Shown piece by piece: positions 11,817 to 42,647 of a DNA stretch of 64,000 nucleotides (positions are counted from its first letter, which is position 1; every line of letters begins with the position of its first letter). Below the pieces are notes generated by a model. The model did no database searches. It worked only from the letters and a program-made list of their open reading frames with translations, and was not told the DNA's origin. The DNA comes from Bdellovibrionales bacterium (GTDB lineage: Bacteria; Bdellovibrionota; Bdellovibrionia; Bdellovibrionales; UBA1609): contig DAIDIG010000004.1 in the NCBI GenBank assembly GCA_027459485.1, forward strand, positions 124,001 to 188,000, written 5' to 3'. The position numbers were made by a program, and so were the translations under genes.

Positions 11817-12341
11817 ATGAGAAAATCGCTATACGCGCTTCTTATCTTGGGCGTGGGCATGTCCGCAATGGCCCAGAATGAACAGCGCCATCACCATCGT
11901 CGCAAACCGCTCGAGCAAATGGTCACAGGCCAAGGTTATGGCCTTGCAGGCTGCGGGCTTGGCTCGATCGTATTCGGCCCACAACCCGGCATGGTACAGG
12001 TTGTTGCCGCCACAACGAACGGCACATTCTATAGCCAGTCATTCGGCATCACCTCGGGCACATCGAATTGCGATATCCCTCGCATGGGTCAGCAAGCCGC
12101 TGAATTCATCCAAGTGAACAAAGAAATCGTGATGAAAGATGCCGCTCGCGGTAACGGCGAAACGATCAATGCGCTAGCCGATATTTTCGGTTGCAGCGAT
12201 GCGAACGTTTTAGGTGCCGACATGCAAAAGCATTTTTCAACATACTTCAATCCGAAAAATAATTCGTATGAAATCACGCGACGCCTTTTGAAATCGCTCA
12301 AAACGGATGCCGCGCTTAAAGCTTCTTGCAAATCCGCATAA
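11817..12341 (+). CDS. DUF3015 family exported protein, copy 1
   Basis: The 174-residue product has a signal peptide ending MSAMAQ, a short His/Arg-rich insert, and the DUF3015 body: YGLAGCGLGS, then FGITSGTSNC and two later Cys (FGCSDANV and the C-terminal KASCKSA) that probably form disulfides in the periplasm. DUF3015 proteins are secreted or periplasmic proteins of unknown function, frequent in Bdellovibrio relatives. An AAGGAG lies about 10 bases before ATG 11817. The second copy starts 18 bp after this stop, so the two look like a tandem duplication within one transcript. Confidence 0.85.
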   Translation: MRKSLYALLILGVGMSAMAQNEQRHHHRRKPLEQMVTGQGYGLAGCGLGSIVFGPQPGMVQVVAATTNGTFYSQSFGITSGTSNCDIPRMGQQAAEFIQVNKEIVMKDAARGNGETINALADIFGCSDANVLGADMQKHFSTYFNPKNNSYEITRRLLKSLKTDAALKASCKSA

Positions 12342-12359
12342 TAAAAGATGGGAGATAAA

Positions 12360-12815
12360 ATGAATAAAATTGCTGCAACAATATCGATCTTGCTCTTAAG
12401 CTGTGGCGCGTTCGCCCAACCTGTTGGCCCGGCCGGCTGCGGTCTCGGTAATCAAGTGTTTGGCGATCAAAACCAAGTTATCGCCGCTACGTTGAACGAA
12501 ACGGGCACTCAGACTTTCGGCATCACCTCGGGCACGTCAAACTGCATTGACTCGTCTCGACAGGCGCAAATGGAAAGCTACATCAACATCAACCGCGTGG
12601 AACTCGCCAACGACATCGCGCGCGGCCAAGGCGAAACTCTCGCCGGCCTTGATAACCTGATGGGCTGCACGAACCAGACGACGGTCAATCAAAGTCTGAA
12701 AAACAATTATCGCGAGATTTTTCCGACTCACAATGCGCGTGCATCTTATGTGAGCCGTCAAATTGTTCGCTCGATCGAAAAGAGCCCCGCACGTACGGCT
12801 TGCCACCTCGGCTAA
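12360..12815 (+). CDS. DUF3015 family exported protein, copy 2
   Basis: A 151-residue paralogue of the preceding gene, with signal peptide ending GAFAQ, and the motifs PAGCGLGN, TFGITSGTSNC and MGCTNQT, plus a C-terminal Cys. ATG 12360 with GGGAG 5 bases upstream is preferred over the in-frame ATG 12348. It lacks the His/Arg-rich insert of copy 1. Conserved Cys positions suggest the same disulfide-bonded fold. A strong intrinsic terminator follows at 12841, ending the two-gene unit. Function is unknown. Confidence 0.85.
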   Translation: MNKIAATISILLLSCGAFAQPVGPAGCGLGNQVFGDQNQVIAATLNETGTQTFGITSGTSNCIDSSRQAQMESYININRVELANDIARGQGETLAGLDNLMGCTNQTTVNQSLKNNYREIFPTHNARASYVSRQIVRSIEKSPARTACHLG

Positions 12816-24806: not shown

Positions 24807-27379
24807 ACGGTCCTCCAATTACACTCGTGGCAGGTTTCAAAATCGAGCGGCTTGGGCGCGAATTGACCGCCCTGAATGCGCCCTATCACGTCTGCGGTTT
24901 TTTCTTTTAATTGGGCATATAATTTTTCAATTTGCGGCCGCTCAAGCGGGCTTTTGCCCCGCGCTTCGCCGTACAGTCGAGTTGCACCTTCGCCAATGGC
25001 GTTTTTGTCGCGAAACCCTTTTTCGCGTTCCATATTGACGATGGTGTAGTAAAACGCACCGAGAACCGGGCCGGGCGGGAGCGAAGTCAGCCCCTGTTCA
25101 ATGCAGAAGCTGTAAAAGAGAAGTTGAAGCTCGTCATTTTCTATCCACGATGTGTAATTGTGAAGCGCGTTGCCCCCCGACCATTTGTAGTCGAGAACGA
25201 CATACTCGCCGCGCGAATTGGCGTCCACACGGTCGATTCGGCCGGTGACTTCAATAGTCGCGTCATTGCCTCGGGGCGCGAATGCACCGCTCACCGGGCC
25301 TTCACGAAGAACGGTTCGAGTATCCGGAAATTCTTGACGCCACTTGCGCTCGAACTCGAGAAATCGCTCGGCGATTTTCACCATTCGCGAACGCGTGGCC
25401 CCCCACAGTACCTGGGCTCCGACCATCACGTCTAACTCGTCGCGAACTTCATCGACAAGTTTTTCAAGCTCGTCTTGCGGCCGTTGCCATTTCAACGGCG
25501 GCTCGAGGAGTCGCTTTAAAATCTCATGTATCATTCGCCCGCCCGTCGCGGCGTCGAGATCGAGGTCGACTTCGGGGCGGTCGCTCAATTGAAATATTTT
25601 TTCAGCCGCGAATTTAAACGGGCAGGCCAAATAATTTTCGAGTTGCGACGGCGAGAGTTTCGGCAAACGATCGAGGTGAATTTCGCCGTCCGCCGATTCT
25701 ATTTCGCCCGCGTTTGCCTGAATTTCATCCCACCGCGTGGCGCCGGCCGTTTCGCAAGCGCCCGTCAAATTAGCCCCCGCATTCGAACCCTCAAGCCAAA
25801 CCGCCGCGGGCGATTGCGGCCGCCCCATCAAATCATGAAGCGCAAAACAGGCGTGGGGCGATTTTGTTTGGGATATCAGGCGCTCCACCCAATACGACCA
25901 ATCGTGCAAGGGAGCTGTCAGATTTATGCCCAAATCGCGCGCCAATTTTTCGCGATCGGTTTCAGACACCGAAATTTTTTCGGGCGGTCGAATGCTGTTC
26001 GAGTCCAGACCCAGTACAATGGCGGTGTCGAGTTCAAGCGACAAAGCGGCATCGAGATTACCGCAGTAGAGCCCGCCGGCATGCGCAGGAGCAGTTTCAA
26101 CTTCGATTCGCGACACAAGCCCTTCTAAATACCGAACCCACGAGCGGGCTTCGAGCCGCAGTTGCGAACGGCAATCTTGAAAGAACACGGCCGCAATGCG
26201 TTCGACCGCTGGGGCTCCGCCTTCGTAAAATTGCAACGACCAAGCAAAAAAACGCTCGCGGTCGAGCGATTCACGCGCGCCGAATGATTGCGTGAACAAC
26301 CGGCGAATAGAGTCATCCCGCTTCAAATCCTCCTCGTCGTAAAGCCTACGATAAAGCGAGGCGAACCGGTCGTAAGCCATGCTTTCATCGCCGCGACGCG
26401 AATACACCGCGGCTTCTAAATCGCCGCTCGACAGATTCTGAATTTCAATTCGAAGGCGCGAGAGCCAGTTTTGCATGGCGGGCAGCGAAGCGACGGGAGT
26501 CACAACCGGCTTTCGCACCGGCAAGCCTTCAACTCGCAAGTACGCTTCAAGTATTGGCCAGTACCGTTCAATGTCGGCTGAGAAAATACCTAACTGGTCT
26601 AATGGCACGCCTCGATCGGCCGCTTCGCGTAACCAATGAACCGCTGCTTTGATCTCCGCGAGCTCGCTTGAAAAACGATGGAACGACGGTTGCGAATTAA
26701 AACCGCTGCTTCTTTCAACTATCGAAATCTGAATGCGTGGCGTTTGAGCTAAAATCTCATAAGGCGAAAAAAGCGCCGCATGGCGCGCGCGTGCTTCACC
26801 GCCGGGCGCTTGCACATTGACAGCACGTGACCGCGACAGCTTTTCGAGCAATTCGGCTTCGACCGCCGTCAGCGCCGACCCTAAATCGACCATCAGATCG
26901 TACGGCCAAAAGTCATCGGGCAGAGACTCCGCCGCCGCCAAAAAACCCGGTACCCAGCGCGACAGTAGAATTTTTTGCGCCGACAACAACTCCCACGCTT
27001 TTTGCGAGAGAAAAAACCAATGTCCCCATCGAACGAGTGCGCCGGTGTTTTGCGCCAGCCACTCCCGCAGTTTTTCGACAAAATGCGGCCGCTCTAGAAT
27101 CGGCAAGAACAGTTCGATGGAGTCAATGAGCTTTTGGCTCGCGCCGGGTGATTGGGCCCACGAGATATTCTGCTTTTTTAACCAGTCATGCAGCCAAACA
27201 CTGAGAAACTGCGGCGAGACGATGTCGATATCGGGAAAATAATTTTTAAGTATGTGGCGCCAGAATTCGCTGGCGCGAAGAACCGCCGTTTCAGGCAGAC
27301 ACGCGGTTTCGCGTAAGAACTGTTGTTGCAGATTGGCCTTGCTCTGAAGATCGGCCACCAACCATGTCGAAGATTTCAT
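24782..27379 (-). CDS. addB: AddB-type nuclease subunit
   Basis: The 865-residue protein has a helicase-like body without a Walker A motif and a C-terminal PD-(D/E)XK domain (GRIDRVDAN then VLDYKWSGG). It carries the AddB iron-sulfur arrangement: one Cys in LACPFKFA near 610 and a final C-x2-C-x5-C (CHECNWRTVC). Together with the downstream AddA it should form the end-resecting complex. It is shorter than typical AddB (about 1100). The ATG at 27379 overlaps the stop of the preceding outer-membrane barrel gene by one base (TAATG), so its translation is likely coupled to that gene, an unexpected partner. Confidence 0.82.
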   Translation of the reverse strand: MKSSTWLVADLQSKANLQQQFLRETACLPETAVLRASEFWRHILKNYFPDIDIVSPQFLSVWLHDWLKKQNISWAQSPGASQKLIDSIELFLPILERPHFVEKLREWLAQNTGALVRWGHWFFLSQKAWELLSAQKILLSRWVPGFLAAAESLPDDFWPYDLMVDLGSALTAVEAELLEKLSRSRAVNVQAPGGEARARHAALFSPYEILAQTPRIQISIVERSSGFNSQPSFHRFSSELAEIKAAVHWLREAADRGVPLDQLGIFSADIERYWPILEAYLRVEGLPVRKPVVTPVASLPAMQNWLSRLRIEIQNLSSGDLEAAVYSRRGDESMAYDRFASLYRRLYDEEDLKRDDSIRRLFTQSFGARESLDRERFFAWSLQFYEGGAPAVERIAAVFFQDCRSQLRLEARSWVRYLEGLVSRIEVETAPAHAGGLYCGNLDAALSLELDTAIVLGLDSNSIRPPEKISVSETDREKLARDLGINLTAPLHDWSYWVERLISQTKSPHACFALHDLMGRPQSPAAVWLEGSNAGANLTGACETAGATRWDEIQANAGEIESADGEIHLDRLPKLSPSQLENYLACPFKFAAEKIFQLSDRPEVDLDLDAATGGRMIHEILKRLLEPPLKWQRPQDELEKLVDEVRDELDVMVGAQVLWGATRSRMVKIAERFLEFERKWRQEFPDTRTVLREGPVSGAFAPRGNDATIEVTGRIDRVDANSRGEYVVLDYKWSGGNALHNYTSWIENDELQLLFYSFCIEQGLTSLPPGPVLGAFYYTIVNMEREKGFRDKNAIGEGATRLYGEARGKSPLERPQIEKLYAQLKEKTADVIGRIQGGQFAPKPLDFETCHECNWRTVCRAPHLN

Positions 27380-28593
27380 TATCTTCGGACTTTAACATAC
27401 GGATTGTCTTCGCTGTCAAAAAATGAATTCGACTCGCTACTCACTGCACCTGTGCCGGCGGCTGTAGTGCCGGCGGTGATATTCCCAAACGCGTCGAAAC
27501 CTAACCGTAAAGTGATCTGCACAAGATAACGTCGGCTTTCCATTTGGCCGGGAGCACCGCCGATTTCTTCTCCCCAAGATGCCGCGCCAATACCGATCGG
27601 CCCCAAATTGAATCCGGCTCCATAAGTGAAGTAGCCTTGGTACAGGCCCGCTTGCAAATCAATCAATGGCAGATCGAGATCGACACCGGCATGCAGTTTA
27701 TTAGTGAGCTGAATGCTCGTATCATTAAGCTGGTCAACTTCGAAAATCGGCATAACAGATACGATCGGTGTATCGAGCAGAAATGAACCCCCGATTCTCA
27801 TGTCTTGGTAATCGATAGGGGGGGCAATCCCGCCCGAAGTGGATGGTTTATATTCCGTGTTGCCGATGTTATCCCAAACAAATGAAAGTACAGGACTCGC
27901 GGGGCCCGGTATACGTAAGTTCGTGCCCCAATCGAGGCCCACGCCCGAGCCCTTGTTGCTAAGGTTATTAAAAATCGCCGACGGTTGAGAGTTGCCATTT
28001 ATAATGTTGCCGATCGTATCTGAGCCAAAATTCTGGCTCACACCTGTCCGCGTGATGTATTTCGCCACAAGCCCCATATCGAGAATATCTGCGAAGGTCC
28101 AACCTGTGCCGGCGACAATGCCTTGATCAGTGAGGTAGGTGAGATCCATCGTGGGGTCGACGGGGTTTTGCACAAGAAGACTCGCGTCGGCGCCGTAAAA
28201 GTAACCGAACGCAAGGTGGGGCATGATGATGGCCGTATCTGCACCGCCACCTGCCCACATCGGCTGGTCGTAAAGACTATTGAGCGTCGATTGAAAACTG
28301 CTGGCGCTTTGCAATTTAGATAGATTTTGCAGCACCGTCGGGTCTGAAATCCCGGCTTCTGGGTTCGCAATCGTCCAGTGAATGCCAGTATTTCGAGCGA
28401 TACCCGCGGGGTTGAACCAAAGCGACTCTTCATTGTCGACGGCCGAGATGAACGCCCCACCGAGACCCATTTCTTGCGGGCTAATATGCATTTCGTAATA
28501 GTCGTGGGCCCAGGAATTTACTGCAAAGAACGGCGTCGCGGCTAAAATCAATATTGCCGCGAAATTGCGAAACCTGCGATTTCTACCATTCAA
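27379..28593 (-). CDS. Outer-membrane barrel protein, PorV/UPF0164/TraF-like, paralogue 1
   Basis: The 404-residue product has a signal peptide ending NSWA. The mature N-terminus carries a motif shared by all three paralogues: a Met-Gly-Leu-Gly-Gly-Ala core, then a Asp-Asn-Glu-Glu acidic step, then WFNPAGIAR. The C-terminal third shares YQGYFTYGAG, ASWGEEIGG and ESRRYLVQ. Strand-rich sequence and Asn-Pro-Ala motif resemble FadL-superfamily barrels such as PorV and the TraF-like family PF13729. The last ~40 residues (Thr/Ala/Gly then DSEDNPYVKVRR) form an extra tail. It follows the lipoprotein gene at 28630 by 36 bp and is coupled to addB. Function unknown. Confidence 0.75.
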   Translation of the reverse strand: MNGRNRRFRNFAAILILAATPFFAVNSWAHDYYEMHISPQEMGLGGAFISAVDNEESLWFNPAGIARNTGIHWTIANPEAGISDPTVLQNLSKLQSASSFQSTLNSLYDQPMWAGGGADTAIIMPHLAFGYFYGADASLLVQNPVDPTMDLTYLTDQGIVAGTGWTFADILDMGLVAKYITRTGVSQNFGSDTIGNIINGNSQPSAIFNNLSNKGSGVGLDWGTNLRIPGPASPVLSFVWDNIGNTEYKPSTSGGIAPPIDYQDMRIGGSFLLDTPIVSVMPIFEVDQLNDTSIQLTNKLHAGVDLDLPLIDLQAGLYQGYFTYGAGFNLGPIGIGAASWGEEIGGAPGQMESRRYLVQITLRLGFDAFGNITAGTTAAGTGAVSSESNSFFDSEDNPYVKVRR

Positions 28594-28629
28594 TAAATTG
28601 CGAATGTGCTACTCCTTTTGCCCTTCGCC

Positions 28630-29514
28630 TTATTGACAAACACAGTTCGTTTGAATCCCACTGCCCGGCGCCGGTATGTAAACCGGGTTACCGCCACAAG
28701 CCCCTTGGTTGACGCCCATGATTGCGCCTTCTTTCAGAAGACTGAGGGCGCCTTTAATTTGATCCGCAGTTATCGAACTTACGCTCGCCGCACTACAGAT
28801 GTCTTCGGCTTTACCGCCGGTGTCTGTTACGCTCGCGATGAGACCGCAAAGCGATGTACTGCCTGAAGCAATACCCGTCGCCACCGTGCCGACGAATGCG
28901 TCAGTCTCAAGTTGCGCTGCGGATTGGGCCATATCCCACACCGCTTCGGCCATCATGAGCTGATAATTCGTTGGAGTCGTGGCAATAGTGCAGGCGTCGA
29001 AGCTGCCCGATAATGTTTTGCTATTTGTTGAATCGCCAAGCGCTTTTGCAATCACTCCGATTTTGTAAAGAGTCAAAGTCATCATATAAAAGTTTGCATC
29101 GCTGCTGCGGCTGGCGGCCGGGCCAATACCGCGCAGAATTGTCTCGGCAGTATCGCAGTCACTTATGTCGCTTGTGGGAGTCGCCCCGAGAAGGGTCGTG
29201 ATATTCTCAAGGCCCCACGGTGTTATTGGCGACCCACTGCCGTATTTCGAAATATTCGTCTCCATCCAATTCATTGAAAAGCCGCATCGCCCAGCATAAG
29301 CCGAAGCACATACCGTCGCATACTGTTCATCAGTCAAGCTCGCCGCCGATATGTAACTGCAATCCGTAATCGCAGATGTGTAGTTGCCACTATTGATGTC
29401 GATCAACGCTTGATACAGATTGGATTGGTCGTTCGTCGTCGCGAACTGCGCAATGTAGTTTTTCGTGCAGCCCGTCGAATAGAACGAAAGAACGGCTGCC
29501 AATATGTACGGCAT
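28630..29514 (-). CDS. Cysteine-containing lipoprotein-like protein A
   Basis: From ATG 29514 the product is 294 residues, starting with a hydrophobic stretch and Cys near 16 (AVLSFYSTGC). This is an atypical lipobox because Ser occupies -3. The open frame extends upstream, but the added residues are not protein-like. The body is Ala/Ser/Thr-rich and helical with repeated Tyr, and has at least eight further Cys (TDCSYI, ATVCASAYAGRCGF, DISDCDTAE, FDACTIA, SLCGLI, DICSAA). Its Cys-Ala...Gly-Phe stretch resembles one in the lipoprotein at 30905. It sits between two related barrel genes on the same strand. Confidence 0.65.
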   Translation of the reverse strand: MPYILAAVLSFYSTGCTKNYIAQFATTNDQSNLYQALIDINSGNYTSAITDCSYISAASLTDEQYATVCASAYAGRCGFSMNWMETNISKYGSGSPITPWGLENITTLLGATPTSDISDCDTAETILRGIGPAASRSSDANFYMMTLTLYKIGVIAKALGDSTNSKTLSGSFDACTIATTPTNYQLMMAEAVWDMAQSAAQLETDAFVGTVATGIASGSTSLCGLIASVTDTGGKAEDICSAASVSSITADQIKGALSLLKEGAIMGVNQGACGGNPVYIPAPGSGIQTNCVCQ

Positions 29515-29635
29515 AGATCGCTCAAAGCGCTTCAGAAGCGAGGCGCGAGGCGTGAGCGCATGAGGCGTACTGTAACCGGTACGCCGCAATAAGCGAGCAA
29601 CGATGTAACGAAGCAGATGAGGTGCTTTCAGCGGT

Positions 29636-30793
29636 CTAGTAGCGGAAGGCGTATTCAAACACATACCTCCTGTCCTGTACCGGCGTGTACGTTTGTCCTG
29701 ATCCGATAAGCGGCACATCTCCGATTTCTTCTCCATAAGACGCGAGTTGCAGTTGAGAATTGGCGATGTCCATCTCGAGGCCGGCCGTCCAGTAGCCTTG
29801 ATTGATCCCACCCCGCACAAAAAGAGTGTCGCCGAAATTAAATTCGACGCCCGCGTGAACACGGCGCATGATGTTCGGCGATTGGTAAATGTAAGTAGGC
29901 TCCATGTTTTGAGTCACATCGGATAATTGAGCGGTCAGGACCATGCGAACGCCATTACCTAAAATGGGTGATATCGAAGCTCCAGCATCGATTGTGTCGG
30001 GCGTCGAAAGAGGCCTATATGTAGTGGAATATTGCGAGCCATGATTGATATCGTATCGGGTGTCGCCGATATCGCGCCAGACAACGCCAATAGTGGGCAG
30101 AGTCGCAACAGGCAACGTGAGCAGTAAGCCGGCGTCGCTGGCAATACCAAACCCTTCGCTGAACAATGTAGACCCGTTGATCATACTCGTCGCCGTTAGC
30201 CCCGTGCTGTTGACCGGGATGTCGGTTCGATTCGATTCTGTTCGATCGACGCCGCGAATGTTCGCGCCGAGTTTTAGAATCCCTGAAAACATGCTGAGGT
30301 TGAACGCCGCCGTGATCGCCTGGTCGTTCCAGTAGTGATAGTGGTAAGTATTTGTCGCGCTATCGAGATAGGCGTCGGTTTGATAGCTATCCAGCACTCC
30401 GATACCAAAGTTAGTCATGACGAGCGAAGGCGAAAGTTGTTCGCGTTGGTGGAGATGCTTATTTGGGTATTTGTTGGCGTCGTTGAGAGTGTATTGTGGG
30501 TTTATTGAATCTAAATATCCAGTATTTACCATTGTCGGAGTGTCTTGCCCGACATCAACTTGGGGGTCGGCAATATTGATAAAATAATTTCGCACGCGAC
30601 CCAACGCTGCCGGATTTAAATAAATCGCCGTCTCGTCATCAACTGTGGCAACCACCGCGTTACCCATCCCCAGCCCACGAACTCCATCGTAGAAATCATA
30701 AATTTCACCGGCGCGCGCCAAACGAGAACTGGCTGCCACCAAGAGCAGGCCGATTGCAGCATAAAAGTATCGCGAACGTTTTAATAGACTCAT
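29636..30793 (-). CDS. Outer-membrane barrel protein, PorV/UPF0164/TraF-like, paralogue 2
   Basis: The 385-residue product has a signal peptide ending SRLARA, then GLGMGNAVVATVDDETAIY and LNPAALGR, matching the barrels at 27379 and 32354. The C-terminal region repeats the shared INQGYWTAG, ASYGEEIG and QDRRYVFEY, and the chain ends Phe-Arg-Tyr, as outer-membrane proteins do. It is the first gene of a probable minus-strand unit: barrel 2, lipoprotein A, barrel 1, addB, addA. It is divergent from lipoprotein B at 30905, with a CTCA-N3-TGAGACG dyad in the gap. Function unknown. Confidence 0.75.
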   Translation of the reverse strand: MSLLKRSRYFYAAIGLLLVAASSRLARAGEIYDFYDGVRGLGMGNAVVATVDDETAIYLNPAALGRVRNYFINIADPQVDVGQDTPTMVNTGYLDSINPQYTLNDANKYPNKHLHQREQLSPSLVMTNFGIGVLDSYQTDAYLDSATNTYHYHYWNDQAITAAFNLSMFSGILKLGANIRGVDRTESNRTDIPVNSTGLTATSMINGSTLFSEGFGIASDAGLLLTLPVATLPTIGVVWRDIGDTRYDINHGSQYSTTYRPLSTPDTIDAGASISPILGNGVRMVLTAQLSDVTQNMEPTYIYQSPNIMRRVHAGVEFNFGDTLFVRGGINQGYWTAGLEMDIANSQLQLASYGEEIGDVPLIGSGQTYTPVQDRRYVFEYAFRY

Positions 30794-30818
30794 TCAGATA
30801 CAATATCGTCATAACCAC

Positions 30819-30834
30819 GACTCAAATTGAGACG
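30819..30834 (+). promoter_or_regulatory. CTCA-N3-TGAGACG dyad, copy C, between divergent genes
   Basis: GACTCA-AAT-TGAGACG lies 26 bp from the barrel 2 start and about 70 bp from the lipoprotein B start. It is placed where a regulator could control both genes. The pattern is seen, but a regulatory role is inference. Confidence 0.4.
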
Positions 30835-30904
30835 GACTTTGGTCCGGATTCGTCGCGGTCTGGGGGCGATTTACAAGCGCTCATTCTCGAGCGACCATGA
30901 ATTC

Positions 30905-31579
30905 ATGAAGCATTTTCAAATTTTATTTTTTGCCGCCGCAGTTTGCGCGGTCGGCGTATTGATTTCAGGATGCGAATCAACCGAAGATGACAATATCGCC
31001 AAGGCCCAAAAATGTCTCGATGGCTTGGGTCCAAACCCATCATCCACCGATGCGCAAAATTGCGTCCAGAATATTCTGAGCGACAACTCACCAAACGCCG
31101 AGGTCGTGCGTTGCGCCGCCGACTTTATAGAGGGCGGCATCACTGACACTTCGCTCATCAACGCATACAACTCAGTCAAAAATTTATCTGGCCCTAGTGT
31201 CGCGCAACAACTTATTCCAGACTTGGCGATTCAATACCCCACCGGAACTTACGACACCGCATTTGCGCAGTCTTTATATAACGACTGCGTGGCGTCCGAG
31301 ACTTCAAGCCTCGTCTATATCGCCGGCTTAGCTCAAACCGGTACGATCATGGCAGCGGCGGCGGGTAGTCCGTCGAGCGCGGCCACATATTGCTCAAATC
31401 CGTCGAACACAAGTAGCTGCAACCCAACCGCAGTCGGCACAATCGCGCAAACGGTTTCATCAAGTTATTGCACCGGCTCAAATCAGACAAGCTCGGTGTG
31501 TACGACTCTAAACAATGCGATTGCACAAGGGAATGGTAACCCCACGAGCATCGGCACTTATTTGCTGCAGAATTTATAG
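30905..31579 (+). CDS. Cysteine-containing lipoprotein B
   Basis: From ATG 30905 the product is 224 residues with a clear lipobox LISGC (Cys23) after a hydrophobic stretch. The earlier in-frame ATG 30827 adds an arginine-rich lead that is unlikely to be translated. The body is helical in its first half (AQKCLDGLGPNPSSTDAQNC, VRCAADFIEGGITD) and Ser/Thr/Asn-rich in the second half. It has ten Cys in the mature chain that probably pair in the periplasm. Its Cys-Ala-x-x-Phe...Gly pattern resembles lipoprotein A. It is divergent from barrel 2. Confidence 0.75.
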   Translation: MKHFQILFFAAAVCAVGVLISGCESTEDDNIAKAQKCLDGLGPNPSSTDAQNCVQNILSDNSPNAEVVRCAADFIEGGITDTSLINAYNSVKNLSGPSVAQQLIPDLAIQYPTGTYDTAFAQSLYNDCVASETSSLVYIAGLAQTGTIMAAAAGSPSSAATYCSNPSNTSSCNPTAVGTIAQTVSSSYCTGSNQTSSVCTTLNNAIAQGNGNPTSIGTYLLQNL

Positions 31580-31586
31580 ACGGGGC

Positions 31587-32306
31587 TTACATCCCCCACG
31601 CCATGCCGATTGAAGCGAGCACGAGAACGTCTTTGATTCCGGCCGCGGCGACAAGTTCAAACTGAATCGATCGCGGCGGCGACGTCACGTCTTGAAAGCC
31701 CGCCGCTACTCTCACGGCATAATTATCCCAGTCCGAAAAACTCGCCAACTGTTCATTGGGTACTAAATCGTGCATGACACCGTAACTGTAGTACGGGCGA
31801 CAGGCGTCCGTCGGGTGAAAAATATGTCGGCGCGCGAACCAAAAATGCTCACGGTTCGCGGTAGAATACTCGCCGCCCCCCTCCCACGCCGAATTCACGT
31901 CACGATTCGCGAGGTCGGAATTGCTCGGAAAGACATAGGCCACACCGACCACACCCGCAGCGGCGTTTTGGGTCGAATTCGACGTCGCTTCGTTGCCGGC
32001 CACTCCACCAATGAATGCTACGAGCTCACTTCGATACGGATAAAAATACGTGTCTCGATGAAAAGTTTTTGACCATTTTAATTTGTCGGAGTCATGCGGA
32101 GTCAAATGAGGCACGGGCGCCACTGATAAATTGCCCGATCCCTTTGTCGATAGATCTGATTTAGTCACGGGCATGTCGCTATTCGATTGCGCGGGCGTTG
32201 GTCTTGCGGGCGATGGTGCCACGTATGGTGCGCTCAATTGCGGTTCGGCAAATGCGGCAACGATCGCGACTAAAGTCGAAAGAATCTTAAGAAGAAGTAA
32301 TTGCAC
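31587..32306 (-). CDS. Exported protein, possible outer-membrane beta protein
   Basis: GTG 32306 is chosen because it opens a signal peptide (QLLLLKILSTLVAIVAAFA) that ends before EPQLSAP; the longer frame runs back over the opposite gene. The 239-residue chain has a Pro/Ser-rich linker, then a strand-rich domain (YRSELVAFIGGVAGNEA, AAGVVGVAYVFPS, GEYSTANREHFWFARRH, VRVAAGFQDVT) that looks barrel-like and ends with SIGMAWGM. No family recognised. It lies convergent with lipoprotein B, 7 bp away, and divergent from barrel 3, 47 bp away. Confidence 0.6.
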   Translation of the reverse strand: MQLLLLKILSTLVAIVAAFAEPQLSAPYVAPSPARPTPAQSNSDMPVTKSDLSTKGSGNLSVAPVPHLTPHDSDKLKWSKTFHRDTYFYPYRSELVAFIGGVAGNEATSNSTQNAAAGVVGVAYVFPSNSDLANRDVNSAWEGGGEYSTANREHFWFARRHIFHPTDACRPYYSYGVMHDLVPNEQLASFSDWDNYAVRVAAGFQDVTSPPRSIQFELVAAAGIKDVLVLASIGMAWGM

Positions 32307-32353
32307 AACGTCAATTATACCCGAACATTCATGAATGAATATAAAATTTTGGG

Positions 32354-33490
32354 ATGCGACAAATTGCAATTGCAACGGTATTAATTGGTGTGGTCTCGGT
32401 TCTGCCATCTTTCGCGCGCGCCGGCGCTCCGAACTACGCCATTCACGAAGATTATCAAAGTATGCGCGCACGCGGGATGGGCGATGCGTTCACCGCGGTT
32501 GCCGACGACGACTTCGGCATGTTCTACAACCCGGCGTCCCTCGGGCGCCCGCATGACACGAATGTTCACTTATTTTTGCAGGCGGCAGCCGATTCGAATA
32601 TCGATCCATTTTACAATGCTATTAAAAACGATGGCAGCGACCCGCAAAGCATCGATAACACGCTTAACCAATATTATGGCGATGACATGTACGTGCGCCC
32701 CGCGCTCGGCGCGATCGTCACCCGCAAGCACTGGAGTCTTGCCATACTCCCGATGGATTTTTCGAATAATTTTGATCTACACCACTCCGTCGCGGCAAGC
32801 GTGTACGTGAATTCAACTGCGGATTCGACCGTTGCGTACGCCTACGGCAATCGCGCGCGCATCCCGTACACCAACCAGAGTATCTATTGGGGTTTTAATT
32901 TGATGTTTGTTCATCGCGCCGTCTACAGTGACGTGATTCAGTCGGCGCAACTCGCGCAAAATAGCAATTTGTTCGATCTGAGTCGCGTGAATGAAGGCGC
33001 CACCGTCGACGGCGATTTCGGTTTATTGTATGACCTGCCAGTCGCACCCGACGCTAAATTTAAGCCGGCGTTTTCACTTGTCGTTCGCGACGTGGCTGAC
33101 GAGGGTTTTTTCATCCCGCTTCGGTTTTTTAATAAAAATGCGAGCGCGCCGTCGCCCTACGAACGCGTGATGGATTTGGGCTCCATGGTCGATCTGCCGC
33201 ACTTTTGGGTGTTTGACCCGAAAGTCGCTCTCGACATGCGCGACATCGGCGATTCGGAGTGGACACCTCTCAAAGGCCTTCACGCCGGCGCCGATTTTTA
33301 CTGGAGAATGTACCATTGGTGGCAAGGCTTCTGGGATGTGGGTATTAATCAAGGATATTGGACCGCCGGTTTCGGCGCGCAAATGTCTGTGTTTCGTCTC
33401 GAACTCGCGAGTTGGGGCGAAGAAATCGGCACAACCAGCGCGCCCGTCGAAAGCCGCCGCTACGGGCTTGAGCTCAGTTTGAATTTCTAA
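32354..33490 (+). CDS. Outer-membrane barrel protein, PorV/UPF0164/TraF-like, paralogue 3
   Basis: The 378-residue product has a signal peptide ending SFARAGA and the shared pattern ARGMGDAFTAVADDD, then FYNPASLGR. The C-terminal third has the INQGYWTAG and LASWGEEIG motifs followed by ESRRYGLELSLNF, a good barrel end with terminal Phe. It is the most compact of the three paralogues and, unlike the others, is on the plus strand. Its only neighbour of similar type is the exported beta protein on the other strand, with a 47-bp gap containing TATAAA near 32339. Function unknown. Confidence 0.75.
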   Translation: MRQIAIATVLIGVVSVLPSFARAGAPNYAIHEDYQSMRARGMGDAFTAVADDDFGMFYNPASLGRPHDTNVHLFLQAAADSNIDPFYNAIKNDGSDPQSIDNTLNQYYGDDMYVRPALGAIVTRKHWSLAILPMDFSNNFDLHHSVAASVYVNSTADSTVAYAYGNRARIPYTNQSIYWGFNLMFVHRAVYSDVIQSAQLAQNSNLFDLSRVNEGATVDGDFGLLYDLPVAPDAKFKPAFSLVVRDVADEGFFIPLRFFNKNASAPSPYERVMDLGSMVDLPHFWVFDPKVALDMRDIGDSEWTPLKGLHAGADFYWRMYHWWQGFWDVGINQGYWTAGFGAQMSVFRLELASWGEEIGTTSAPVESRRYGLELSLNF

Positions 33491-33659: not shown

Positions 33660-34247
33660 CTAAATTTTCGCTAGCAGCTCTTTGACCTGCCGGCGCAGCT
33701 CGGCGACCGAGCCATCGTTACGCAAAACATAAGTGGCAAGTTCGCGTTTTTCGTCGATCGGCATTTGCGAGTCGAGACGACGGGCGATTTCGGTATCGAG
33801 CAATTCCGTGTGTTCGCGCAGCCTCGCCATCTGCAATTCGCGAGGAGCATAAACCAAAACGGTTGCGTCGAATTCGCTTTGCATGTTCTTTTCAAATAAA
33901 AGCGGCACGTCGTAAAACGCCAATTCGCACCCCTGCCGCTCGAGAGCGCGCCGCTCATCCGCTCGCCGTGATTGGATCAACGGGTGCAAAATCGATTCAA
34001 GCTCAGCTCGCTTTTTCGAATCCGAAAAAATAATTCGGCCGAGTGCCCGGCGGTCCAGTTCACCGGCCTCAGTCAAAACCCCCTCGCCGAAAGTCCGAGC
34101 GACTTCGGTTAGACCGCGCGAGCCCGGCCGCACAACTTCGCGCGCGAGCACGTCAGCATCGACGACCGGCCGACCAAAGTCGCGCAGAATGGCCGACACT
34201 GTACTTTTGCCTGTGGCGATGCCGCCGGTGAGGCCGATCCATTTCAT
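33660..34247 (-). CDS. coaE: Dephospho-CoA kinase
   Basis: CoaE phosphorylates the 3'-hydroxyl of dephospho-CoA, the last step in coenzyme A synthesis. With ATG 34247 it has 195 residues, the family's usual size, starting MKWIGLTGGIATGKS with the P-loop at about 8-15. DADVLAREVV, HPLIQ and the lid segment follow, as expected. The open frame begins upstream, but those residues are not conserved. A 48-bp gap separates it from the divergent kinase gene. Confidence 0.95.
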   Translation of the reverse strand: MKWIGLTGGIATGKSTVSAILRDFGRPVVDADVLAREVVRPGSRGLTEVARTFGEGVLTEAGELDRRALGRIIFSDSKKRAELESILHPLIQSRRADERRALERQGCELAFYDVPLLFEKNMQSEFDATVLVYAPRELQMARLREHTELLDTEIARRLDSQMPIDEKRELATYVLRNDGSVAELRRQVKELLAKI

Positions 34248-34295
34248 TATTGTTCCCAACTTTCCGATACCTAGTACGAAGGAAATTAATTTAAA

Positions 34296-36428
34296 GTGTC
34301 GCAAAGTTACGAATATTTTGGCAAATACATTCTCCTCGAGAAACTGGCTACGGGCGGGATGGCCGAAGTGTGGCTGGCGCGTGCCCCTGGCGCGGGCGGC
34401 ATCGGCAAGTTTGTCGCGATTAAAAAAATTCTGCCCCAGTATTCAGATAGCCCCGAATTTCTGCAGATGTTCAAAGACGAGGCGACGATCGCCATGAACC
34501 TTTCGCATGGCAACATTGTATCGATTTACGAACTTGGCCAAGAAAAGAATCAGCTTTTTCTCGTGATGGATTTCGTCGAGGGCCGCAACCTACGGCAGAT
34601 TCTCAACAAGATGAAGGGTTCGCCCAGTAAATTTTCGGTCGATCAAATCGTTTACGTCATCAAAGAAGTCGCGGCCGGTCTCGATCACGCGCACCGAAGC
34701 CTCAACAGTGCGACTGGCAAACCACTCAACATCATCCACCGCGACATGAGCCCCCAAAACGTGATGATCAGCTTCGAAGGTGAAGTCAAAATCGTCGATT
34801 TCGGTATCGCCAAAGCCGAAAGCCAACTCGAATCCACGCGCACCGGCACTCTCAAGGGCAAGTTCGGTTACATGAGCCCCGAGCAGGCCGAAGGCCAGGA
34901 GACCGATCTGCGAACAGATATCTTCTCTGTGGGCATCGTGCTGTGGGAGCTACTCGCCAACGACCGTCTTTTCATCGCCAACAACGAAATCAACACGCTT
35001 CGCAAGATCAAAGAGTGCAACGTCCCGACGCTTTCGAAACTTAACCCAAACGTGCAGCCGGAGCTCGAGCGCATCACCATGAAGGCTCTCACGCGCGATC
35101 GCAACTTGCGCTATCAAACAGCGGCTGCCATGCACCGTGATCTCAATCGGTTTTTAAATCGGCAATATCCCGACTTCTCGCCGCACGATTTTTCCGTCTT
35201 CATCAAAACACTGTACACCGATGAAATCATCGACCTTCGCAGTCGTCAGGTGGAGTACGCGAAAATTCCGTTCCGCACCTCGACTGCCAGGGGCGGAGAA
35301 GACAAGACACTTGTGACTTCCTTTCCGCAAATGCCGAATCTGATAGGGCAGAAGTCGATTCATGCCGGGACGGGCGTGAGCATTCAAACTATCCGCACAG
35401 CCAAAGCTGCAGCCACCGGGTCAGACCAAGATCTAACCGAAACCGAAACTTTTACCGACACTGACGAAGAAGTGAATGGCGCCTTTAACACGGCGACCAA
35501 GCCACCTCTCCCCGAAGCTGTGTCGGAAAAACTGCAACCCGAGTTGCCACTAGGTGAAAACGGGGCGCCGCTATTGAGCGCCAATGTTTTAAATTCCAAT
35601 AAACTTGCCGAAAGCCTTGAGCAACAGCCACAGGTACTACCAGGCATCGTGAGTACCCCTTCAGCTTTGATAAAGCCTTTACTCCCCAAAAAGAAGCGCT
35701 CACCTCGCTCGCGAAGTAGACGGACTCCTTCAGCCGCTTCCTGGAATATTATGATCTTTCTCGCGGGCACAATCGTGACGTATGTTCTTGTGACAACAGT
35801 CTTTGCCACCCAACTTTCGCAGATGCAGTCACATATGCGTGACTTCGCGAGTTGGTTTAATCCTGCGCCGCCCGCGCCGACGCCTCAGCCAAAAATCAAT
35901 TCATTCAATTTGCCGATTGCAAACACCCCGTCGACCCCGCAAAAGCCGCTGCCGCCCGCGACAACCGGCTTAACTGTGAACAGCGCACCGTCGGGAGCCG
36001 AAATATTTGTGAACAATGTCGATAGCGGTCAAACAACGCCGGGTATTGTTCGCGTCCCGGCCGACGGAACGTTTTCAATCGGCCTTAAACTTGATCGCTA
36101 CATTGATTACAATAAACCCTACCTGACCATTCTGCGTACCGGCCCCACTTTCACCGCAACTCTTCAACCAGCCGCGATCGGCTACCTCGACATTGACGTC
36201 AGGCCTCCGATCAGCTCGAAGATTTACATTAATGGGCGTCAATTGCGCGATAATATCTTGCCCATCAGCGATTATGCCATACCCGCTGGCGCACCTGTGA
36301 CCATCCGAGCAGTGGATCCTATTCACGGCAAGACCGCGCAGCTCACGGTTCGTTTACAAGAAAACGAGCATCGCTCCGTCATTTTGTACTTGAAAGATCG
36401 ACGGTATCCCGCTAGCCACAGCTGGTAA
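34296..36428 (+). CDS. Ser/Thr protein kinase with membrane anchor and PEGA domain
   Basis: The 710-residue protein has an N-terminal Hanks-type kinase domain: LATGGMAEVWLAR glycine loop, Lys43 in VAIKK, catalytic HRDMSPQN (Asp150), DFG 168-170 and an activation loop with GTLKGKFGYMSPEQ. A long low-complexity juxtamembrane region (Thr/Pro/Glu-rich) follows, then one transmembrane helix (about 482-505, IMIFLAGTIVTYVL). The extracytoplasmic part has a Pro-rich linker and PEGA repeats (VNSAPSGAEIFVNN; IDVRPPISSKIYING). It senses the periplasm and signals in the cytoplasm. GTG 34296 is the start. Its stop overlaps fadD-like ATG by one base, implying coupling. Confidence 0.92.
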   Translation: MSQSYEYFGKYILLEKLATGGMAEVWLARAPGAGGIGKFVAIKKILPQYSDSPEFLQMFKDEATIAMNLSHGNIVSIYELGQEKNQLFLVMDFVEGRNLRQILNKMKGSPSKFSVDQIVYVIKEVAAGLDHAHRSLNSATGKPLNIIHRDMSPQNVMISFEGEVKIVDFGIAKAESQLESTRTGTLKGKFGYMSPEQAEGQETDLRTDIFSVGIVLWELLANDRLFIANNEINTLRKIKECNVPTLSKLNPNVQPELERITMKALTRDRNLRYQTAAAMHRDLNRFLNRQYPDFSPHDFSVFIKTLYTDEIIDLRSRQVEYAKIPFRTSTARGGEDKTLVTSFPQMPNLIGQKSIHAGTGVSIQTIRTAKAAATGSDQDLTETETFTDTDEEVNGAFNTATKPPLPEAVSEKLQPELPLGENGAPLLSANVLNSNKLAESLEQQPQVLPGIVSTPSALIKPLLPKKKRSPRSRSRRTPSAASWNIMIFLAGTIVTYVLVTTVFATQLSQMQSHMRDFASWFNPAPPAPTPQPKINSFNLPIANTPSTPQKPLPPATTGLTVNSAPSGAEIFVNNVDSGQTTPGIVRVPADGTFSIGLKLDRYIDYNKPYLTILRTGPTFTATLQPAAIGYLDIDVRPPISSKIYINGRQLRDNILPISDYAIPAGAPVTIRAVDPIHGKTAQLTVRLQENEHRSVILYLKDRRYPASHSW

Positions 36429-38209
36429 TGAGCTCACGCACCATTCTTCACCATCTGCTTGATCGTCGCGAAAAAAACGCCGAGTTACCTGCGATTCAGT
36501 TCAAAGACCAGAGCCGTTGGGTCAGTTACAATTGGCGCGAGTACACGAGCCTAATCGAAGCGTTCGGAGCCGCTCTCATCGAACGCGGCGTTGAGCCTGG
36601 CGATCGCGTCGTTATAATTTCAGATACCCGGCCCGAATGGATCATCGCCGATCTCGCGATCATGGGAATTGGTGCCATCACGGTCCCAATTTACCCGAAC
36701 AACACGATCGAAGATGTAGAATATATTATTCGAAACTCCGACGCCGCGGCACTGATTCTCGAAGACTCCGCCCAAATAGAAAAATGGCAGAATCTGGCAC
36801 CCTCGCTTTCTACGGTCAAATACTTGATAGCAATCGAATCCTCCGACAAATTGCCCAGCGATGTTTGGTCGTGGGGTCGAATGCTCGAATCGGGCCGCGA
36901 GCGACTTAAACAAGATCCTCGTTTATTTTTCGACCGGGCCCGCGCGACGAAGCTGCAAGATATCGCGACACTTGTGTACACGTCCGGCACGACGGGCACT
37001 CCTAAAGGAGCGATCATCTGCCACGAACAAATCATGAGCGAAGTGGCCGATGCGTTCGCAATCGTTGCGGTGAACAGCGAAGACACGACGCTGACGTTTT
37101 TACCGTATTCACATATTCTCGGCCGGCTTGAAGCTTGGGGCAACGTCTATGCCGGATACCTTTTGGCGTTCGCCGAAAGTATCGAAAAAATCCGCGACAA
37201 TTTGCTCGAGGTGAAACCGACGTTCATGATCGCGGTTCCACGCATCTTTGAAAAAATATATGCCGGTCTACTCGCGCAAATCGAAAATCATCCGGCAAAA
37301 AAACAGCTGTTTGATCGCGCGTTCGCAATCGGGCAACGCGTAAGCGAAGCCGAGCAAAATCAGCGATCGCTCAGTTTTCGTTTGATGCTCGAACACAAAG
37401 CGGCCGACGCGTTTGTTTTTTCACGAATTCGTAAAGGAATGGGCGGCCGTTTACGTTTTGCCGTATCTGGCGGAGCGCCATTGAGCCCCGAAATCGCTCG
37501 ATTTTTTCACGGCGTCGGCCTTTTGATTTGCGAAGGCTACGGCCTCACCGAAACAACCGCGGGCATCGCCTTCAACACTCCCCTTCACTACAAAATCGGT
37601 ACGGTCGGCCGCCCGATAGGCGACGTGCAGATTCGAATTGCCGACGACGGTGAAATACTTGTGAAGTCGAAAAAGGTCATGAAAGGCTATTACAAAAACG
37701 ACGATGCCACACGCGAAGTGATGATCGACGGCTATTTTAAAACGGGTGACATCGGTGTCATCGATGAAGACGGTTTTTTACGAATCACCGATCGCAAAAA
37801 AGACTTAATCAAAACGGCGAACGGCAAGTACGTGGCGCCGCAGCGGCTTGAGAATCTTTTGAAAACAAATCCGTACATTTCTAACGTTCTCATTCACGGC
37901 GATCAAAAAAAATATATAGTGGCATTGATCACGCTCAATGCCGGCATGATTAAAAAATATGCCTCTGAAAAAGGGGTGTCGTTTGAAAACATGACCGATT
38001 TGATAAAATCCCGCCAAGTTTATAATTTGATAAAATACATTGTCGCCGAGACGAACTCTCATCTCGCGAGCCACGAATCGATAAAAAAGTTCGCGATATT
38101 GCCGCACGATTTCACCATCGAAGCCGGCGAATTGACCCCGAGCCTCAAGGTGAAGCGTAAAGTCTGCGACGAGAAATACCGCGCCGAAATCGACGCGCTT
38201 TATAGTTGA
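36428..38209 (+). CDS. Long-chain acyl-CoA ligase (AMP-forming), FadD-like
   Basis: The 593-residue enzyme activates fatty acids to acyl-CoA through an acyl-adenylate. The ATP-binding P-loop YTSGTTGTPKGAI is at 184-196, and later motifs are GYGLTETTAG, KTGDIGVID and DRKKDLIKTANGKYV, all typical of the ANL superfamily. It resembles the long-chain synthetases of the FadD15/AACS-type. It overlaps the upstream Ser/Thr kinase stop by one base. Substrate length cannot be read from the sequence. Being coupled to a kinase suggests phosphorylation control or a lipid-related signal, which is inference. Confidence 0.9.
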   Translation: MSSRTILHHLLDRREKNAELPAIQFKDQSRWVSYNWREYTSLIEAFGAALIERGVEPGDRVVIISDTRPEWIIADLAIMGIGAITVPIYPNNTIEDVEYIIRNSDAAALILEDSAQIEKWQNLAPSLSTVKYLIAIESSDKLPSDVWSWGRMLESGRERLKQDPRLFFDRARATKLQDIATLVYTSGTTGTPKGAIICHEQIMSEVADAFAIVAVNSEDTTLTFLPYSHILGRLEAWGNVYAGYLLAFAESIEKIRDNLLEVKPTFMIAVPRIFEKIYAGLLAQIENHPAKKQLFDRAFAIGQRVSEAEQNQRSLSFRLMLEHKAADAFVFSRIRKGMGGRLRFAVSGGAPLSPEIARFFHGVGLLICEGYGLTETTAGIAFNTPLHYKIGTVGRPIGDVQIRIADDGEILVKSKKVMKGYYKNDDATREVMIDGYFKTGDIGVIDEDGFLRITDRKKDLIKTANGKYVAPQRLENLLKTNPYISNVLIHGDQKKYIVALITLNAGMIKKYASEKGVSFENMTDLIKSRQVYNLIKYIVAETNSHLASHESIKKFAILPHDFTIEAGELTPSLKVKRKVCDEKYRAEIDALYS

Positions 38210-41774: not shown

Positions 41775-41828
41775 AGCCTCGCAACTCGCGCGCTACCCCC
41801 GCAGTCAGTTGCGAGGCTTCTTTTTTTA
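41775..41828 (+). terminator. Intrinsic terminator with long loop
   Basis: AGCCTCGCAACT and AGTTGCGAGGCT pair perfectly over 12 bp around a 20-base loop and are followed by TCTTTTTTTATT. It faces the plus strand and lies between convergent genes. Confidence 0.85.
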
Positions 41829-42647
41829 TTCAGAAACCGAACCCATAGGCGGCAAATAAAATCGAAAGACGACGCCGACGAAAACGCCGCTCATGTCGAG
41901 CGACACGCGCCCGCCGCCGTTATCGGTAACGGTTGCACCTTTGCTCACAGCGACAACACCCGAGCCGCGAACGGCACTGCCGGCCGCTGCGTAAGTAAAT
42001 TGATTGAATTGCATACCGCGATAACCGGCCTCAAGAGCGATCGATGTGTTTTGAAACGCGCGATATTCAGCGCCAAGCCCGGCAACGTATGACGTCGTCG
42101 TGCCACTCCATTTTTCATTTATGTTGGAGCTCGCCCCGTATTGAGTCAGGCCTGTGGAAGTAAAATTGTCTGTATTCGCGACTGTCGCCATGGCATAGCC
42201 ACCGTCGAGCAATAAATAAACTCGGCCGTTAGGGCGATCGCGAACGAGATTGTATTGAATGCCGAGGTTCGGGTTCCAGACCGTGGCGAGGCTGTTGACG
42301 GTCATAAGTTGGGCGCCGTCGGACGCACGCGTGCCGTTCGCATCGATCGATTTGCCCTCGTAACCCTCAAGCCCCAGCCGAACGCTGAATTGATCGCTCA
42401 AGTTGAATTGCATTCCGAATTCGCCGCTGAAGCCAAAGTTCACTCCATCCAAAAAATTGGTTTGCGATCCGCTTGTCCGTGAATAGGCCTGTGAAGACTG
42501 TAGTGTGTCAGCGGCGGTGCCGCGAATGAACGGCGCAATTGTCGCATCCGAAAGGTTAAAAACGTAAGCGTACGCCGTTTGAGCAAGCAACCCTGCCAGA
42601 GCAAAAACCGCCGCAATGGCAGAGCCTCGAATAGTTTTCAGGGTCAA
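41826..42647 (-). CDS. Outer-membrane beta-barrel protein
   Basis: The 273-residue product begins at TTG 42647, whose codon overlaps the stop of the preceding gene (TTGA). Its signal peptide ends QTAYA. The mature chain has alternating amphipathic strands (FSGEFGMQFNLSD, SVRLGLEGYEG, VYLLLDGGYAMATV, TSYVAGLGAEYR, IALEAGYRGMQFN, VFVGVVFRFYLPP), a typical small OmpA/OmpW-like barrel pattern. No close family named. Its gene partner upstream encodes a small exported protein with an AMIN-like end. Confidence 0.75.
   Translation of the reverse strand: MTLKTIRGSAIAAVFALAGLLAQTAYAYVFNLSDATIAPFIRGTAADTLQSSQAYSRTSGSQTNFLDGVNFGFSGEFGMQFNLSDQFSVRLGLEGYEGKSIDANGTRASDGAQLMTVNSLATVWNPNLGIQYNLVRDRPNGRVYLLLDGGYAMATVANTDNFTSTGLTQYGASSNINEKWSGTTTSYVAGLGAEYRAFQNTSIALEAGYRGMQFNQFTYAAAGSAVRGSGVVAVSKGATVTDNGGGRVSLDMSGVFVGVVFRFYLPPMGSVSE

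Follow-up and report, generated by a model that had tools for sequence, protein, structure and literature searches.

What is done by three paralogous outer-membrane barrels that are kept together with two lipoproteins in a member of the mostly predatory order Bdellovibrionales? The genes in question occupy positions 27379 to 33490 of the window, i.e. the whole stretch of 64,000 nucleotides that was analysed (assembly GCA_027459485.1, contig DAIDIG010000004.1, positions 124,001 to 188,000; genome of 2.75 Mb, 99.8% complete). In a preliminary description of this DNA, they had been regarded as repeated barrel-plus-lipoprotein units of an envelope assembly. This view was supported, with a cluster that is larger than first noted and kept across the order, and the named open reading frames were all confirmed in the window as real genes: three barrels (A, B and C), two lipoproteins (lipo1 and lipo2) and one small exported protein (gene8). 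Comparison of the sequences with those of relatives indicates three fixed orthologous barrels, their co-inheritance with both lipoproteins, joint relocation of modules, and a private, conserved C-terminal tail on barrel A. As to function, FadL-superfamily barrels with dedicated helical lipoprotein partners may together form an outer-membrane system for hydrophobic molecules, a reading that is tentatively favoured here at somewhat less than even confidence.

Paralogy and co-inheritance of the barrels

Barrels A (27379..28593, minus strand), B (29636..30793, minus strand) and C (32354..33490, plus strand), with the lipoproteins interleaved, were confirmed by searches to be the paralogues that had been proposed: barrel C as query against its own genome returned only barrels A and B (E 3e-17 and 5e-12), and profile–profile comparison over the full length gave E 1e-45 and 6e-49. 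An N-terminal NPA motif is present in all three (NPAGIAR, NPAALGR, NPASLGR), as is a C-terminal ASx-GEEIG...RRY block; both had been recognized before, and only a further element, QGYxTAG, had to be amended, barrel A having QGYFTYGAG instead. A tree of 105 barrels resolved groups A, B and C, with at most one member of each per region and none left over, and IQ-TREE analysis of a subset supported them at 95.4/95 (A), 100/100 (B) and 100/100 (C). Barrels A and C as a sister pair were rejected, not being a clade by themselves; A, C and A-like proteins of other classes together form one (94.6/98).

Among 60 relatives, barrels were found in 48 by sequence search with barrel C, mostly three per genome, and profiles matched lipo2 in 48 and lipo1 in 45 of the same genomes, so that the proposed co-occurrence of barrels and lipoproteins is real across genomes. 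The 12 genomes without barrels (1.2-2.4 Mb) also lacked both lipoproteins, except for a weak, probably spurious lipo2 match in G017 (E 1.7e-4). All six genes are present, at ~3.053-3.060 Mb, in a genome which we take to be that of B. bacteriovorus HD100. Over 40 compared regions, the recurrent order was AddA-like, AddB-like, A, lipo2, B, lipo1, (gene8) C, CoaE, kinase and acyl-CoA ligase.

The strongest evidence on partnership comes from genomes in which this order is broken. In the complete genome G043, presumably P. exovorus (B. exovorus JSS), A-lipo2-B occupy 2023-2026 kb and C + lipo1 368-370 kb; the same split was seen in G023, on contigs of 250 and 63 kb, and apparently in G035 and G030 too, with A-lipo2-B near a contig start in G030. 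In G054 the cluster is complete, and a further copy of C and lipo1, separated by 12 bases, lies elsewhere in the genome. An A-like barrel adjoins lipo2 in other classes of the phylum as well, in a different neighbourhood whose genes, by our own reading of the sequences, resemble coaD, rsmD and an aminotransferase. Since the modules relocate jointly, one pair was copied as a unit, and lipo2 and A keep together in other classes too, we infer that lipo1 is the functional partner of C, and lipo2 that of A and B.

Several single observations were made alongside. A second lipo2 copy without an adjoining barrel (G057:C9:50803-51639, L165) is an exception to the pairing. In two loci of other classes (L159:2120-6551 and L158:2821-7393), the lipo2-A pair faces a forkhead-associated (FHA)/YscD-like protein, a small outer-membrane barrel and a ~690-amino-acid (aa) protein without Pfam match. 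G191:C2:10477-11625 and G213:C22:4329-5462, from a family of another class, matched barrel C at 3e-140 and 2e-119, where their relatives match at ~1e-11; lateral transfer or misbinning is possible. Barrel C is longer in G043 (C1:367993-369540) and its close relatives, with an open frame of ~474-525 aa whose match falls into two parts, which points to a large inserted loop.

Predicted barrel fold, tail and lipoproteins

Barrel A, which has a TTG start and a signal peptide to ~residue 29, was modelled with AlphaFold (AF2) from 38 sequences (predicted local distance difference test, pLDDT, 86.5; predicted template modelling score, pTM, 0.81). In the model, a helical plug at the N-terminus is followed by ~14 strands, and residues 371-404 form a disordered tail, a linker that ends in VKVRR. 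Alignment with VIA-align gave Z scores of 24.5 for CymD, 24.1 for FadL, 23.8 for PorV, 23.6 for TbuX and 20.6-21.6 for BamG, followed by OmpG at 18.7. By this model, the fold of barrel A is that of the FadL superfamily (FadL/TodX/PorV/BamG), and B and C, FadL/PorV-type paralogues that represent the orthologous groups B and C, are homologous to it. Like FadL/TodX/TbuX (E. coli FadL, PF03349; Z ~22-24 over ~290 residues, ~10% identity), it is a 14-strand-type barrel with an NPA plug and a mature N-terminus of apparently the same length; unlike them, the window barrels do not reach PF03349, to which one of 35 B members showed a match at 0.03, and they come as three fixed paralogues with lipoprotein partners and a basic tail on A. 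PopA (Bd0427) of B. bacteriovorus, a pentameric lipid-trapping outer-membrane protein with 16 strands from a separate superfamily (PMC12228718), is likewise a plugged outer-membrane barrel of the same predator group, but its match to the barrel A model (9gf0, Z 11.9) is far weaker than those of FadL-fold proteins.

Residues 30-31 of the barrel A model align with FadL residue 1, so that A appears to keep the short N-terminal tail of FadL, unlike the extension of BamG; from alignments, with cleavage sites judged by eye, the tails of A and B are of FadL length and that of C is ~6 residues longer. At the C-terminus, 30 of 31 members of the order carry a variable linker and then a basic motif that finishes with RR, the exception being cut by a contig end, and the exact sequence LKQRR ends 18 of the 31. 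Outside the class, this tail is missing or different, and barrels B and C mostly finish with ordinary last strands and an aromatic terminus. LKQRR as a general sorting signal was rejected: in the apparent HD100 and P. exovorus genomes, the coded motif was found once per genome, at barrel A, with other matches at chance level.

Of the sequence families, PorV_fam was the commonest match, found below threshold in 106 of 108 scanned barrel homologues. In the window, it scored 12.3 bits for A (E 0.09), 31.6 for B and 23.7 for C, below the NCBIfam cut-off of 90; B matched PorVQ2 at 2e-10 and PorV_fam at 1e-7, both under the curated cut-offs, and all 35 aligned C orthologues matched PorV_fam (best 6e-16; window member under the cut-off). 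The resemblance to PorV that had been noted from motifs is borne out by these matches and by the place of PorV among the top structural matches of barrel A. Two further resemblances proposed at the same time were not recovered, as UPF0164 (PF03687) gave no match to E 1 for the window barrels nor to 0.1 in 35 B members, and TraF (PF13729) a single match among 35 members (E 0.016). The BamG model NF053685 did not match the window barrels and matched 10 of the 108 homologues at 4e-4 or weaker; a PDB sequence search with the barrel profiles returned no matches.

The lipoprotein lipo2 (28630..29514, minus strand; 294 aa; lipobox STGC, Cys16) starts at ATG 29514, the open reading frame start at 29862 overlapping barrel B, and adjacency suggests it as the partner of barrel A across the phylum. 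Its predicted model is all-helical and loosely, though not convincingly, TPR-like (pLDDT 79.9, pTM 0.80), with Z scores of 8-10 against tetratricopeptide repeat (TPR) domains, under the value of 13 advised for helical repeats; Pfam TPR matches appeared in single members only, no better than 0.05, and Foldseek returned no match below E 0.001. Kinship with BamD was considered and rejected, since the full-length profile match to the BamD N-terminus (E 3e-4) is mainly signal peptide and mature lipo2 gave E 0.32 over 34 residues.

The probable partner of barrel C by co-inheritance is lipo1 (30905..31579, plus strand; 224 aa; LISGC, Cys23), which has acidic residues after the cysteine. At least two such residues within six after Cys were counted in 33/34 lipo1 orthologues, compared with 2/29 for lipo2 and 2/15 for other lipoproteins of the same regions; the same criterion was applied to BamH-K and Bacteroidota surface lipoproteins (PMC12578637), and by analogy the motif of lipo1 resembles their surface-export signal. 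The two lipoproteins had been described as sharing Cys-rich stretches. Several conserved cysteines were indeed found in the mature part of each, but the similarity of these parts is no more than suggestive, hhalign returning 27% (E 7e-4) over 206 columns where controls did not exceed 0.4%, and firm paralogy was rejected, the value of 95% obtained with signal peptides falling to 27% without them.

The sixth gene, gene8 (31587..32306, minus strand; start codon approximate), is divergent from barrel C and encodes a small exported protein, as had been stated, that is probably a small beta barrel; its start needed correction. The open reading frame start at 32471 overlaps barrel C, so the real start lies downstream, and comparison with relatives gave GTG 32306 as the best candidate. 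The gene8 profile matches most compared regions, including the apparent HD100 genome (E 1.5e-6).

Traffic of hydrophobic molecules and alternative readings

In a system for hydrophobic molecules, A (and B) would bind lipo2, and C would bind lipo1. Fatty acids or other lipids would cross the outer membrane through the barrels as they do in FadL, via plug and lateral opening. On the periplasmic side, where it probably resides, lipo2 would take up or hand over the ligand, while lipo1, probably surface-exposed, would act on the outer side with barrel C, and the basic tail of barrel A could dock a periplasmic partner. Imported acyl chains might then be activated by the neighbouring long-chain fatty-acid-CoA ligase-like AMP-binding enzyme (36428..38209, plus strand; PF00501 2e-74; NCBIfam FadD11 2e-102, below cut-off), the last step of coenzyme A (CoA) synthesis being that of the neighbouring dephospho-CoA kinase CoaE (33660..34304, minus strand; PF01121 3e-57; present in 29 of the compared regions). 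In favour of this reading are the FadL-fold top matches of the barrel A model, above OmpG, the NPA plug motif in all three barrels, the conserved gene order, the joint relocation of modules in G043, G023, G035 and G030, the duplicated pair of G054 and the lipo2-A pair of other classes. An orthologue of the ligase is present in 35/38 good cluster-bearing and 0/8 good cluster-less genomes, most of the latter retaining more distant ligases. Neither the own genome nor the four family-f8 (Bdellovibrio-type) genomes searched yielded a canonical FadL (PF03349), which leaves a possible role for the cluster barrels.

Several points weigh against lipid traffic. Ordinary FadL channels need no lipoprotein, three fixed paralogues or basic tail, and the barrel A model resembles PorV and BamG, neither of them a lipid transporter, almost as closely as FadL. 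Three good cluster-bearing genomes (G012, G030, G056) lack the ligase orthologue, and beyond the class it is not located next to the lipo2-A pair. The cluster-less genomes are reduced, so that joint loss may only reflect genome reduction; DNA-repair and kinase genes share the neighbourhood too, so that adjacency by itself counts for little.

An alternative that is possible, though rather unlikely, is a BamG/BamH- or PorV-like complex, in which FadL-fold barrels would be reused as scaffolds or shuttles that fold, insert or display outer-membrane proteins or lipoproteins, with lipo1 on the surface side of C and lipo2 in the periplasm. It accounts for the data nearly as well as transport does, and fits the lipo1 signal (33/34 versus 2/29 for lipo2) and the conserved tail of barrel A better; the apparently longer N-terminal tail of C and the prevalence of PorV_fam matches point the same way. 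The precedent lies in Bacteroidota, where the FadL-family barrel BamG binds BamH, a lipoprotein of the surface, and a putative operon encodes the paralogous pair BamG2-BamH2 (PMC12578637, PMC12611786), and where the N-terminal extension of BamG plugs the barrel through the lateral opening (PMC12578637). The cluster shares with it the combination of a FadL-fold barrel and a lipoprotein with acidic post-Cys residues, as well as duplicated pairs. However, the barrels fall outside the BamG profile, whose few matches are weak (best 4e-4), A and B appear to keep FadL-length tails without a long extension, no bam gene is present in the cluster, and the acidic signal is unproven outside Bacteroidota. 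Being absent from viable genomes, the cluster is not an essential core of the beta-barrel assembly machinery (BAM).

A bolder proposal, which we consider unlikely, is that the six proteins form one hetero-oligomeric outer-membrane machine of three FadL-fold barrels with a periplasmic and a surface lipoprotein, docked via the LKQRR-type tail of A. It would assemble or display surface proteins or traffic lipids, as a Bdellovibrionota counterpart of, and independent from, the Bacteroidota BamG-BamH dome.

That unrelated envelope proteins are kept together by a conserved chromosomal neighbourhood alone seems improbable. The AddAB-like, CoaE and kinase genes are also kept, with no obvious link, and the extra lipo2 of G057 has no barrel beside it, but the units C+lipo1 and A+lipo2+B have each remained intact where they moved to other sites, C and lipo1 were duplicated jointly, and lipo2 and A are adjacent in other classes despite a different neighbourhood. 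A surface complex for prey contact, adhesion or predation is about as doubtful: within an order that is mainly predatory, the cluster is near-universal among the members with larger genomes, but the lipo2-A pair also occurs in other classes, and no mention was found, by guessed locus tags, in the main texts of one predation proteome paper and one transposon sequencing (Tn-seq) paper. Export or adhesion, given as examples in the preliminary description, would be hypothetical roles, and export of the type IX secretion system (T9SS) kind with PorV/PorQ-like shuttles is strongly disfavoured. Most barrels do show sub-threshold PorV/PorQ/PorVQ2 matches, and the barrel A model has Z scores of 23-24 to PorV/PorQ, but PorV_fam remains at 12-32 bits in the window, far under 90, and SprA (TIGR04189) was found in 0/40 relatives including the own genome, with Bacteroidota positive controls at 3/3.

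Neighbouring genes and significance

Beyond CoaE, a Ser/Thr protein kinase with a PEGA domain (34296..36428, plus strand) is a conserved neighbour, lying beside the cluster in most relatives. Another small outer-membrane-barrel-like protein is encoded near the cluster at window positions 41826-42647 and is conserved in 14 compared regions, and two adjacent paralogous short genes with no assigned function are located at 11817-12341 and 12348-12815. A scan for promoters and terminators gave nothing informative.

The locus had been put forward as a candidate for an undescribed system, to be abandoned if its barrels matched a well-described transporter family and the lipoproteins did not accompany them in other genomes. 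Half of this came true: the predicted fold is that of a known transporter superfamily, yet the lipoproteins do co-occur with the barrels. Structurally, the barrels thus belong to a protein kind already known. A paper describing the cluster was not found in a search of main texts, with few subscription journals and guessed HD100 locus numbers, and as far as this search shows, the set of three fixed paralogues, two dedicated lipoproteins and a private tail is apparently undescribed, although an earlier description is possible.

FadL-fold barrels are emerging as parts of large envelope machines, as with PorV and BamG, and here three of them are retained alongside dedicated lipoproteins across a whole, mostly predatory order, to whose carriers the tractable model predator HD100 apparently belongs. 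The modular inheritance yields direct predictions of binding partners, and the conserved tail of barrel A offers a small handle for testing them. The finding bears on the question of how lipids from the prey enter these bacteria, or how their unusual outer membrane is built.

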